Below are positions 19,844 to 36,871 of a stretch of 64,000 bases of DNA, piece by piece. Source of the DNA: Leptothrix discophora. GTDB taxonomy: Bacteria; Pseudomonadota; Gammaproteobacteria; Burkholderiales; Burkholderiaceae_C. The notes beneath the pieces were generated by a model that worked only from the letters and a program-made list of their open reading frames with translations, made no database searches and had not been told where the DNA came from. Positions within the stretch are counted from its first letter, which is position 1. Every line of letters begins with the position of its first letter. Location of the stretch: NCBI RefSeq assembly GCF_030705305.1, contig NZ_JAUZEE010000005.1, positions 186,001 to 250,000 on the forward strand, given 5' to 3'. Both the position numbers and the translations under genes were made by a program.

Positions 19844-19898
19844 CGCACATCGATCGTCGTTTTTCATCGTTTGACCGCGCTAGGGCGGTCTCGATAAT
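19844..19898 (+). promoter_or_regulatory. Putative sulfur-regulon promoter of cysB (shared 29-bp block plus -10)
   Basis: A 29-bp block at 19844-19872 begins CGCACATCGATCG and ends CATCGTTT. It is followed by 20 bp and the -10-like hexamer GATAAT at 19893-19898, about 40 bp before the GTG start. The block shares the pattern GCA-N5-A-N4-C-N6-C-N-TCGT with five other promoters in this window, all at the same distance from the hexamer. Consistent with autoregulation of cysB. Confidence 0.7.
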
Positions 19899-19937
19899 TC
19901 GTTTTTCAGATAAGGGGCGTGCCGACGCCCGACCGCC

Positions 19938-20885
19938 GTGAACTTCCAGCAACTGCGATCTGTCCGCGAGACCGTCCGTCAGGGCTTCAACCTGACCTCG
20001 GTGGCCCAGACGCTGCACACCTCGCAGCCGGGCGTCAGCCGGCAGATCCGCGAGCTGGAGGACGAACTGGGCGTGGACATCTTCGTGCGCGCCGGCAAGC
20101 GCCTGACCGGCCTGACCGCACCCGGCGAGGCGGTGCTGCCGATCGTCGAGCGCATGCTCACCGAGGCGCAGAACCTCACCCGCGTCGGCGACGACTACGC
20201 CGAGCGCGACACCGGCCGGCTGTCCATCGCCGCGACCCACTCGCAGGCCCGTTACGCGCTGCCGCAGGTGGTGCGCGATTTCCGCCAGCTCTACCCGCGC
20301 GTGACGCTGAACCTCCACCAGGGCTCGCCGCGCCAGGTGGCGCAGATGCTGCTGGACGGCGAGGCCGACGTCGGCGTCGCCACCGAGGCGCTGGCCCAGT
20401 ACGACCAGCTCGTCGCGCTGCCCTGCTACCGCTGGACCCACAGCGTGGTCGTGCCGGCCGGCCATGCCCTGCTGGACGGTCCGGGGCCGCTGACGCTGCA
20501 ACAGATCGCCGCCGAGCCGGTCATCACCTACGACGTCGGCTACACCGGCCGCACCCACATCGACGAGGCCTTTGCCCGCGCCGGCATCCGGCCCGATGTG
20601 GTGCTGACCGCGATGGACGCGGACGTCATCAAGACCTACGTCGAGCTGGGCCTGGGCATCGGCATCGTCGCCTCCATCGCCTTCGACCCCGACCGCGACC
20701 GCAACCTGCGCGCGATCGATGCCCGCCACCTCTTCGCCACCAACCTCACCCGCCTGGCGGTCCGCCGCGGCACCTACCTGCGCGCCTACGTCTACGACTT
20801 CATCCAGGCCTTCGCCTCACCGCTGACCCGCGAGGTGGTCGAGAAGGCGCAGGCAGAGGTGCCGGGGGCGGATTTCGAGATCTGA
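19938..20885 (+). CDS. cysB: CysB-type LysR regulator of sulfur assimilation
   Basis: 315 residues with GTG start. The N-terminus MNFQQLRSVRETVRQGFNLT is the CysB/Cbl signature, followed by the helix-turn-helix QTLHTSQPGVSRQIRELEDELG. The effector domain contains TTHSQARYALP-like residues (here ATHSQARYALPQV) used by CysB to bind sulfate/N-acetylserine-type ligands, and the C-terminal YLRAYVYDFIQAF. It should activate sulfate uptake genes under sulfur limitation. It is convergent with the cysTWA operon rather than at its end, as is common in related bacteria. It carries the same promoter block as its presumed targets. Confidence 0.93.
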   Translation: MNFQQLRSVRETVRQGFNLTSVAQTLHTSQPGVSRQIRELEDELGVDIFVRAGKRLTGLTAPGEAVLPIVERMLTEAQNLTRVGDDYAERDTGRLSIAATHSQARYALPQVVRDFRQLYPRVTLNLHQGSPRQVAQMLLDGEADVGVATEALAQYDQLVALPCYRWTHSVVVPAGHALLDGPGPLTLQQIAAEPVITYDVGYTGRTHIDEAFARAGIRPDVVLTAMDADVIKTYVELGLGIGIVASIAFDPDRDRNLRAIDARHLFATNLTRLAVRRGTYLRAYVYDFIQAFASPLTREVVEKAQAEVPGADFEI

Positions 20886-21226
20886 GGGGTGTGTCGCGGG
20901 CGTCCTGAAGCAGGGCCTGCACGCCCTTGGGCAGATTCGTGTGGGCGCTGCCCATGCCACCCGTTGGCTCGACCGTTCGGCTGGCGCTCGGACCGAGGTG
21001 GGGCGCGATGCGGACCTGCTTCGGTCGCGCCGCGGGTGCTTCCTGGCACGCACTGCCCCGGACGTCCACGCGGTCGTTGACAGCCCGAGGCAGTGCCGAG
21101 CGTTGCCAGATCTCACAGGCCGGCAGCTGGGCGGCGCGATGCCATCGACGTCCCGTCGGAAGGGGAACGCCCAAGCGGGCACGCGGGCAGGCAGGCGCGC
21201 TGTGCGCCTTGCCGCCCGATCCCGCC
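20886..21226. other. 340-bp gap between convergent cysB and cysA
   Basis: No supported gene. There is an imperfect GC hairpin around 21188-21212 (GGCAGGCGC / GCGCCTTGCC with one bulge) just behind the cysA stop that may end the leftward operon. The remainder has neither repeats nor a ribosome-binding site leading to a credible ORF. Confidence 0.4.
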
Positions 21227-22294
21227 TCAGATCGCCGCCGCCGGATCCTCCGCCACGTCCTGGCGGACGTCGCCGCCGGCGACGAAGCGGGTGACGCGGC
21301 GGGCCTTGAGCCAGACGCGGCTGCCGGTGGACAGCGCGAGCTGCTCGCGCAGCTGGTGCCAGCGCACGCGCGGGAGTTCGACGTCGACGTAGCTGCCGTC
21401 CTCGCGCTTGAACTCCAGGCGCGTGCTCGGGCCGACGGTCAGGGCCTGGCTCAGCGTCACCGCGATGGCGTCGGGCTGCGGCGCGCCGACCACCTCCAGC
21501 TCGTGCGGGCGCACATAGCTGACTTCGCCCTCGCTGCCGCCGGGCGCATGGCCCAGGCGGCCGTGGAACAGGTTCACGTCGCCCAGGAACTGCAGCACGA
21601 AGGGCGTGGCCGGGCGGTCGTAGACCTCGTCGGGCGTGCCGACCTGCTCGATGCGGCCCTCGTTCATCACGACGATGCGGTCGGCCACCTCCATCGCCTC
21701 TTCCTGGTCGTGCGTGACGAAGACGCTGGTGACATGCACCTCGTCGTGCAGGCGGCGCAACCAGCGGCGCAGTTCCTTGCGCACCTTCGCATCGAGCGCG
21801 CCGAAGGGCTCGTCGAGCAGCAGCACCTTGGGCTCGACCGCGAGCGCGCGGGCCAGCGCGATGCGCTGGCGCTGGCCGCCGGAGAGCTGGTGCGGGTAGC
21901 GGTCGGCGATCCAGTCGAGCTGGACCAGCTGGAGCAGCTCGGTGACCTTGCGGTGGATGGTCGCGTCGTCCGGCCGCGTGGCCTTGGGCCGCACGCGCAG
22001 GCCGAAGGCGACGTTCTCGAAGATCGTCATGTGCGCGAACAGCGCGTAGTGCTGGAACACGAAGCCGACCTGCCGGTCGCGCACGTCGGTGTGGGTGGTG
22101 TCCTCGCCGTGGAACAGCACGCTGCCGCTGTCGGGCACTTCCAGGCCCGCAATGATGCGCAGCAGGCTGGTCTTGCCCGAGCCCGACGGGCCCAGCAGCG
22201 CGACCAGCTCGCCCGACGGGATGTCGAGGTTCAGGTTGTCGCAGACGACGGTCTTGCCGAACCGCTTGTTGAGGTGTCTGACTTCGATGGACAT
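21227..22294 (-). CDS. cysA: Sulfate/thiosulfate ABC transporter, ATP-binding subunit
   Basis: ATPase that powers sulfate import, 355 residues. Walker [11 protein letters not shown]-loop [13 protein letters not shown], signature LSGGQRQR and Walker [13 protein letters not shown] are intact. The D-loop is followed by [17 protein letters not shown], a CysA hallmark, and the H-loop is [11 protein letters not shown]. The C-terminal TOBE-like domain (YVRPHELEV) is regulatory. Last gene of the cysT-cysW-cysA operon; a GC-rich repeat sits in the cysW-cysA junction. Confidence 0.96.
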
Positions 22295-22328
22295 GGGCAG
22301 GAATCCGAGAGGGTGGGTGTTCGTCAAG

Positions 22329-35541: not shown

Positions 35542-35607
35542 GTCGGTGTTCCTCGAAAGCGTCGGGGGGCGGGTCGTGGTCGTTCGCTCAGGCGCTGCGG
35601 TCGGCGC

Positions 35608-36564
35608 TCACTGCGGCGCCAGCACGGCGTCGGCGATGCGGATGGCCCTGGGGATCAGCTTCAGCTCGGCGAAGGTGTCGGCGACCTTCTGCTGTGCCGC
35701 GATCACCTCCGGCGTCAGCGGGGTCACGCCGTACTGGTAGCGGCGGATGGCCTGCTCGACGATCTCGACGTCCAGGCCCTGCACCGGGGCGATGATCCGG
35801 GCGGCCTCGCGCAGGTTGGCCTTGAGCCAGCGGGCCTGCTGGGCGTTGTCCTCGAACACCGCCTGCACGATCTTCGGGTGCTTCTGCACGAAGCCGCGCT
35901 CGGCCAGGTAGTAGGCATGGTTCGGCACGATGCCGCGTGCATCGGTCAGCAGCCGCGCACCGGTCTGCTTCTCGATCGCCGACAGGAAGGGATCCCAGAT
36001 CGCCCAGGCATCGACCGCGCCCTTCTCGAAGGCGGCGCGGGCGTCGGCCGGGGTCAGGAAGACGGGCTGGATGTCGGTGTACGTCAGGCCGGCCTTCTCC
36101 AGCGCCTTGACCAGCAGGTACTGCACGTTGCTGCCCTTGTTAAAGGCGACCTTCCGGCCCTTCAGGTCGGCGATGCTGCGGAGGGCCGAATCCTTCGGAA
36201 CCACGATGCCTTCGGCCTCCGGCGCGGCCGGGTCGTGGCCGATGTAGACGAAGTTGGCGCCGGCGGCCTGGGCAAAGATCGGCGGGGCCTCGCCGACGAA
36301 GCCGATGTCGATGGAGCCGACGTTCAGGCCTTCGAGCAGCTGCGGGCCGGCCGGGAACTCGACCCACCTGATGCTGGCGCCCAGCGGCGCGAGCTTCTTC
36401 TCCAGCGTGCCCTGCGCCTTCTGCAGCGTCAGCAGGCTGGCGGACTTCTGGAAGCCGATGCGCAGCTCGACGGCGGTCTGCGCCAGGGCCGGCGCGAGGC
36501 TGGCGCACAGGCCGGCCAGCGCGAGGGTGGCGAGGGCAAGGCGGCGATGGATGGGTCGGTTCAT
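35608..36564 (-). CDS. ssuA: Aliphatic sulfonate-binding periplasmic protein
   Basis: 318 residues; signal peptide (HRRLALATLALAGLCASLAPALA, cut before QTAVE). The core matches the SsuA/TauA fold: LRIGFQKSASLLTLQKAQGTLE, EFPAGPQLLEGLNVGSIDIGFVGEAPP, and the C-lobe AAFEKGAVDAWAIWDPFLSAIEKQTG. First gene of the leftward ssu operon; a roughly 170-nt leader separates it from its promoter block. A decayed paralogue lies divergently at 37117. Confidence 0.94.
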   Translation of the reverse strand: MNRPIHRRLALATLALAGLCASLAPALAQTAVELRIGFQKSASLLTLQKAQGTLEKKLAPLGASIRWVEFPAGPQLLEGLNVGSIDIGFVGEAPPIFAQAAGANFVYIGHDPAAPEAEGIVVPKDSALRSIADLKGRKVAFNKGSNVQYLLVKALEKAGLTYTDIQPVFLTPADARAAFEKGAVDAWAIWDPFLSAIEKQTGARLLTDARGIVPNHAYYLAERGFVQKHPKIVQAVFEDNAQQARWLKANLREAARIIAPVQGLDVEIVEQAIRRYQYGVTPLTPEVIAAQQKVADTFAELKLIPRAIRIADAVLAPQ

Positions 36565-36742
36565 GGTCGGCTCTCGTGGGCAGCGTGGGGATGGGAAAGA
36601 TCAGGTCGGGCGGCTCGAAAAAGGCGCCCCGCAGGACAGGTCCCGCGGGGCCCGTGAACACCCCCGACGTGGGGAGGAGACAAGCGGCCGGGTCCGGCAG
36701 CGGCGACGACGCGGCGAGCGCCGGCAGGACCCGATGCACTGC

Positions 36743-36797
36743 ACGATAGGCAACCGTCCTGCTGCTGCGAACGAAGCAATTCGAGAATGAATATGCG
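36743..36797 (-). promoter_or_regulatory. Putative sulfur-regulon promoter of ssuADCBE
   Basis: Minus-strand block (36797 to 36769) starts CGCATATTCATTCTCG and ends GCTTCGTTC; 20 bp later TATCGT at 36748-36743 serves as -10-like hexamer. Back-to-back with a rightward copy at 36817. Confidence 0.72.
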
Positions 36798-36816
36798 AGG
36801 CAGCGAGCCGCGCCGG

Positions 36817-36871
36817 CGCATATCGATCGGCGGTTTTCTTCGTCGCCAGCGCGGCCCGCCCGCTCTACAAA
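36817..36871 (+). promoter_or_regulatory. Putative sulfur-regulon promoter driving the 55-aa ORF and ssuA remnant
   Basis: Plus-strand block 36817-36845 starts CGCATATCGATCGGCGG and ends CTTCGTCG. After 20 bp comes TACAAA (36866-36871). It agrees with the cysB block at 23 of 29 positions. Only 19 bp separates it from the opposite-facing ssuA block, giving a shared divergent control region. Confidence 0.72.

Follow-up and report, generated by a model that had tools for sequence, protein, structure and literature searches.

Six promoters of a Leptothrix discophora sulfur gene island share a conserved block that is probably read by a CysB-family regulator

Why should six promoters of a sulfur gene island, lying on both strands, carry the same block of sequence at the same distance from the −10 hexamer? 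The island is part of a 64,000-nucleotide stretch of Leptothrix discophora DNA (NCBI RefSeq assembly GCF_030705305.1, contig NZ_JAUZEE010000005.1, positions 186,001 to 250,000), called the window here, in which an original prediction had listed such a block before cysB, cysT, sbp, fccA, ssuA and a small open reading frame (ORF) with an ssuA remnant. All six blocks and hexamers are present as they were written there, and the pattern GCA-N5-A-N4-C-N6-C-N-TCGT matches the two strands of the window at exactly these six sites. We consider it highly probable that all six promoters belong to one regulon and depend on an activator, namely the CysB-family LysR regulator whose gene lies at 19938-20885. 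The sites and their proposed reader are given below with expectation values (E) from a model of sites from the genus (R2) and with the fit to an upstream dyad, both described in the following paragraphs; G, L and C numbers are our labels for genomes, loci and contigs.

19830..19898, + strand: cysB promoter site, with dyad half TTATGCG, block at 19844-19871 and −10 GATAAT at 19893-19898; R2 E 1.8e-6; dyad 5/7.
19938..20885, + strand: CysB-family LysR regulator gene, the proposed reader of the sites; GTG start; NCBIfam NF009327, 473 bits.
24327..24395, − strand: cysT promoter site, −10 TAGCAT; R2 E 6.5e-8; dyad 5/7; kept in G004 (L100).
25512..25580, − strand: sbp promoter site, −10 TAGCAT; R2 E 3.3e-10; dyad 4/7; orthologous sites in relatives.
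27584..27652, − strand: fccA promoter site, −10 TACGCT; R2 E 8.0e-8; dyad 6/7; weaker counterpart in G195.
36743..36797, − strand: ssuA promoter site, −10 TATCGT; R2 E 6.1e-10; upstream dyad half 1/7, unrecognisable.
36817..36871, + strand: site before the small ORF and ssuA remnant, divergent from the last, −10 TACAAA; R2 E 1.2e-6; dyad half 0/7, unrecognisable.

The bare pattern is no commoner in the 4.65-Mb genome (14 matches) than its backwards-read control (15 matches) and is therefore weak evidence by itself; we rejected it as a genome-wide regulon finder. Six of its 14 genome matches nevertheless fall within 17,028 bp, where about 0.05 would be expected (Poisson P ~4e-11), so that the clustering far exceeds chance, but this probability is flattering because the pattern was drawn from these same six sites. 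Leave-one-out tests avoid that bias, and in all six cases (6/6) the model built from five sites ranked the left-out site above every non-training position on both strands of the window. With R1, a sequence model of the six window sites, only these six matched in their own genome at E≤3 (best 150 of 270 first-look candidates scored). With R2, a model of 22 genus sites including the window six, they were recovered at E≤1.8e-6 and the next candidate stood at E 0.9 (best 150 of 2459 candidates scored). The original prediction had proposed a genome scan with the pattern and had held that a similar density of matches elsewhere would speak against a regulon. Such a density is what we found for the bare pattern but not for the full profile. 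No further regulon members were found in this genome with R2, whose next matches (E 0.9-1.1) cover part of the model.

The fixed spacing between block and −10 recurs in relatives when the −10 is kept out of the search. A block model free of −10 columns gave 124 matches (6 with the reversed control). In 52 of 121 distinct blocks a TAnnnT begins 21 bp downstream of TTCGTT, and no other offset between 0 and 39 has more than 2. The block as first drawn holds, but conservation runs about 12 bp further upstream than its original limit. In 79 dereplicated sites, conserved columns outside the search profile read together with the block as TTATnCG-N5-CGnATAA, which is probably a 19-bp dyad with T-N11-A at about −73 to −55 (centre about −64). 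This numbering takes the hexamer as −12 to −7, which puts TTCGTT at −39 to −34. The best direct repeat in the same logo is TTCG at 31 bp, reaching into columns outside the search profile, and the second, downstream stretch is conserved and not clearly dyadic. Alignment of the six 57-bp windows alone with MAFFT inserted gaps and was replaced by a 32-column alignment (A2) and then by one of 58 columns (A3), over which 22 sites from nine genus genomes (six from the window) align without gaps. Left out of A3 were two L104 sites near-identical to those of L102/L103, an own-genome match on C26 (20.2) and all sites scoring below 20 with the six-site matrix, some of them upstream of a second sbp or upstream of cysB and some inside genes. 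The ssuA and small-ORF sites stand back to back with block starts 20 bp apart, and back-to-back site pairs are also found in G010, G012 and G002.

Within the genus, R1 matched 8 of 13 genomes, nearly always near cysB, sbp or ssu. We searched a larger set of named loci, the 80 best of 494 loci carrying a CysB relative (1.335 Mb), with the 58-column profile and obtained 93 matches at score ≥12, against 0 and 0 for the reversed and complemented profiles; a site scoring at least 16 is present in 49 of the 80. The first gene downstream of the 93 sites encodes Sbp in 38 cases, CysB in 13, mop/SsuF in 6, an SsuA-like protein in 4, an SsuD-like protein in 4 (assigned at 24-32% identity), CysT in 3, a rhodanese in 2, SsuB in 1, a hydrolase in 1 and other proteins in 12, with none called in 9. 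CysB was the criterion for choosing these loci, so that sulfur genes nearby are to be expected in part. A less biased test was to search whole family genomes by motif alone, from which 30 loci were fetched, 28 of them outside the two training genomes. An island-type protein homologue lies downstream of a site in 24 of the 28 (L131 being counted via its divergent partner, and L121, L124, L143 and L146 resting on 28-42% matches); none was found downstream in L130, L136, L140 and L148. The motif is present at E≤0.01 in 57 of 141 sampled family genera, with about two genomes expected by chance, and order-wide in 13 of 300 genomes at E≤0.001 under strict filters. Five of these 13 belong to the own family and eight to other families, the latter including L266, where the motif precedes sbp adjoining a 70% CysB. 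Targets in the window and in relatives include sbp, cysT, ssuA, ssuE, mop, cysK/rhodanese and cysB itself. Since the same block stands before sulfur-scavenging genes in so many relatives, it very probably serves as the switch that controls a sulfur-starvation regulon.

At the protein level, the island regulator belongs to the CysB family and is not enteric-type CysB proper: it passes the CysB-family model NF009327 (473 bits, cut-off 402) but falls under the enteric-type CysB equivalog NF009326 (400 bits, cut-off 436), and its best PDB sequence matches are CysB chains. Set against Klebsiella aerogenes CysB as described in PMC11329422, six of nine residues of the acetylserine pocket are identical, Thr102 is replaced by Ser, and the activating residues T28 and S29 are kept.

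The site also travels with this particular regulator. Among 200 family genomes, 69 have both the motif and a close orthologue of the island protein, 3 the motif only, 18 the orthologue only and 110 neither, so that 69 of the 72 motif-positive genomes carry the orthologue (P 1e-32). The link is kept within the 142 genomes that bear sbp, where the site occurs in 69 of 87 with a close orthologue vs 2 of 55 without one, and missing targets therefore do not explain the co-occurrence. In genus genomes G005, G007, G009 and G011, the close orthologue, sbp and R1 matches are all lacking. The comparative evidence thus supports the earlier proposal of a CysB-type LysR site near −35 and a sulfur-starvation regulon, with the putative reader encoded in the island itself and its close orthologues accompanying the site.

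The mechanism that we infer from these comparisons is most likely that of a LysR/CysB-type activator promoter. A CysB tetramer would hold the upstream 19-bp dyad (about −73 to −55) via one pair of DNA-binding domains, and the other pair would be placed on the downstream element, which ends in TTCGTT (−39 to −34), 31 bp or about three helical turns from the TTCG of the dyad. At low sulfate and cysteine, with an acetylserine-type inducer rising, the downstream pair would contact RNA polymerase at a promoter that has TAnnnT as its −10 but lacks a regular −35. Sulfate uptake (sbp-cysTW), sulfonate desulfonation (ssu) and fccAB would then be switched on and cysB itself adjusted.

Several observations weigh against this reading or against parts of it. 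In the regulator, pocket residues Phe199 and Met246 are Val and Ile, respectively, and the activating Tyr27 is His. The dyad is the best of the 79-site logo by a small margin only (3.24 vs 3.08 for the next centre), its halves show no co-variation beyond column composition, and its upstream half is recognisable in four of the six window sites, those without it being the ssuA and small-ORF pair. No site scoring at least 16 is present in 31 of the 80 named loci, and 18 of the 87 orthologue-bearing genomes lack a site at E≤0.01. Some of these 18 may hold weak sites, because the family motif search used strict filters; G008 is negative with R1 and has sites of 26.1 and 23.8 with the six-site matrix. 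Conversely, three genomes have a site and no close orthologue, two of them at E 0.007-0.008, which is about chance level for 200 genomes, and the third (G115, 76% complete) with three strong sites; in the genus, G010 has the motif and sbp, and a close orthologue was not found in this 68% complete genome. In the own genome, the bare-pattern match C26:12364 (locus L111) scores 20.2 with the six-site matrix; it lacks a TAnnnT at the set spacing, and neither R1 (E≤3) nor R2 (E≤10) matches it. Finally, the cysB-promoter sites (10 in the named loci) stand apart as a class: their −10 is of CAgAAT type and their TTCGTT is looser. Control of cysB may therefore have another sign.

The regulator might alternatively be a sulfonate-specific homologue, Cbl- or SsuR-like and with another effector, governing a sulfonate rather than a general sulfur-starvation regulon. 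The genome does encode two CysB-family proteins, which recalls the division of labour between CysB and Cbl in enteric bacteria or between CysB and SsuR in Burkholderia; the Cbl model scores near that of CysB for the island regulator (385 vs 400 bits, both below cut-offs), and sites serve ssuA, ssuE and mop. The commonest target is nevertheless sulfate uptake, with 38 of 93 sites before sbp (in loci chosen by CysB), and the protein fits the effector domains of CysB better than that of Cbl (247-250 vs 216 bits), which makes the sulfonate-specific alternative rather improbable. It is improbable that the sites are read by the second CysB paralogue of the genome (G000:C25, 49% identical) instead of the island regulator. 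NF009327 places this paralogue in the family too (438 bits), its DNA preference may be similar, and in two or three genomes the site is present although the island protein has no close orthologue there. But a CysB-family match (E≤1e-80) is present in 194 of the 200 family genomes, and still the site follows the close orthologue in the proportions given above; moreover, no site scoring at least 11 lies in the 20 kb around the paralogue (L110), and the island regulator has one before its own gene. Recognition of the block by an alternative sigma factor, with TTCGTT as −35 element and no activator, agrees with the fixed distance to the −10 but is very improbable: in a sigma-70 promoter, −35 and −10 are not separated by as much as 21 bp, conserved columns continue upstream at −73 to −55, and site presence follows a LysR gene.

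LysR promoters in general have a T-N11-A recognition site near −65 and an activation site near −35. The reading preferred here, a CysB-family activator on the island promoters, resembles that layout in the probable T-N11-A dyad centred at about −64 and the second element at −39 to −34, and departs from it in that the second element keeps TTCG 31 bp from the TTCG of the dyad. In Burkholderia cenocepacia, SsuR and CysB reportedly control sulfonate genes, and that system would share with ours the two CysB-family regulators and the sulfonate and sulfate gene targets. In a CysB structure paper (PMC11329422), the activation sites of Salmonella cysP, cysK and cysJIH are 19-bp elements centred 50-60 bp upstream of the start, each suspected to hold two half-sites, and enteric CysB sites are described as having a very weak consensus, an uncertain half-site arrangement and variable accessory sites. 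Our sites resemble those of Salmonella in their upstream position next to the −35 region, the probable 19-bp element and the proposed CysB-family activator, and the whole site region, which spans −73 to −34 and is centred at about −53 when numbered from the hexamer, fits the CysB activation-site position of −50 to −60. In contrast to the weak consensus there, however, one sharp consensus with one spacing is found here in dozens of genera and offers a clean system for working out how a CysB tetramer is seated on a promoter. In the literature searched, including passages of PMC11329422, PMC5002191, PMC9023270, PMC6966769 and PMC3885589, we came upon no account of either this consensus or CysB control of fccAB, which is no proof of absence, with RegPrecise and most subscription literature outside the search. 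Within those bounds, what is new is how sharp the consensus is, how widely it is spread in the family and that fccAB is included; the kind of system is known.

We judge fccAB to be the unusual target in this otherwise known kind of regulon. The pair has the flavoprotein domains of flavocytochrome c sulfide dehydrogenase (FCSD) and a partner cytochrome c (26.5 bits, cut-off 27), and FccB is certain by domain; the promoter site lies about 260 nt upstream of the fccA ATG at 27318. Its predicted membership in the regulon gains support from two other genera in which fccAB occurs in the same island, one of them with a modest box before fccA. In that genome (G195, FccB 76% identical) the fccA box scores 16.5 with a good dyad and is not among the R2 matches at E≤0.01, and a FadL-type gene beside fccAB has a box of 33.0. 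Locus L191 of Aquariibacter albus SJAQ100 carries site sequences identical to those of G195. In the other genome (G125), fccAB has mop on one side and cysB on the other, within a same-strand gene run beginning with sbp and ssu genes, and a weak box (13.5) precedes this sbp. The own genome has a second fccAB copy, 56% identical and without a box; no box at score 9 was found before it (L262) or before the copies in L263 and L265. Among the 30 best fccB loci of the family sample (L112, L149-L177), a box scoring at least 10 was found only at L112 and L149, both island copies, in a search of 1.5-kb flanks that may miss distant promoters. This FccAB clade is thus associated with sulfur scavenging: its position shows this in three genera, and a box before fccA (one strong, one modest) in two of them. 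We tentatively suggest that a second, dedicated FccAB, distinct from the other copy, might have joined the CysB-family regulon, together with a small membrane protein, to serve sulfur-starved cells in scavenging or protection, and that its substrate might be a periplasmic sulfur compound other than free sulfide. If so, an enzyme known from sulfide-oxidising energy metabolism would have an assimilatory role. The profile itself annotates sulfur-starvation genes genome by genome and puts fccAB and small hydrophobic proteins in that response.

The island genes concerned are the following.

22360-23286, − strand: cysW, sulfate permease, above cut-off (TIGR02139 and TIGR02140 for cysT/cysW).
23392-24225, − strand: cysT, sulfate permease, above cut-off (same models).
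24445..25470, − strand: sbp, sulfate-binding protein; NF008022, 554 bits (scanned as 24445-25518); ATG at 25470.
25647-26927, − strand: fccB, flavocytochrome c sulfide dehydrogenase flavoprotein; PF21706 and PF09242 above cut-off.
26956-27318, − strand: fccA, c-type cytochrome; PF13442, 26.5 bits, slightly below the cut-off of 27.
31920-32507, − strand: MsuE-like FMN reductase, slightly below its cut-off.
32486-33445, − strand: ssuB, ABC ATPase domain.
33445-34320, − strand: ssuC, by family models.
34345-35541, − strand: ssuD, by family models.
35608-36564, − strand: ssuA, by family models.
36921..37088, + strand: small ORF of 55 amino acids with a hydrophobic segment, behind a box; no Pfam match.
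37012..37623, + strand: second ssuA, reduced to a signal-peptide-like start and the C-terminal half.

The island also encodes a 632-amino-acid protein with cysteine-dioxygenase-like and rhodanese domains (29989-31887), which has no separate box. The 55-amino-acid ORF has a relative directly downstream of sbp in G002 (L106:9765-9902; 41% over 49 amino acids, E 1e-4 with composition correction off). Other small hydrophobic ORFs stand behind boxes in L256 and L257, but we dropped the idea of a single family when these and the window ORF gave no mutual match. G125 has a full-length second SsuA (L260), and the reduced copy shares 57% identity with residues 226-368 of its translated frame; full-length tandem ssuA copies are found in G010 and G012.

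Back-to-back box pairs for divergent genes were also seen in L102, L104, L106, L131 and L246, and an overlapping pair in L261. Boxes precede a FadL-type outer-membrane protein gene in two genera (L100:6221 and L258:15414; no NCBIfam match), and those at L193:9143, L246:4071, L242:13917 and L257:9210 belong to ORFs that by eye resemble peroxiredoxin, O-acetylhomoserine sulfhydrylase and TauD-like dioxygenases. The names FadL, alpha/beta hydrolase, L106 rhodanese, SsuF (Mop-domain protein), TauD and peroxiredoxin are presumptive, given by eye with no family match.

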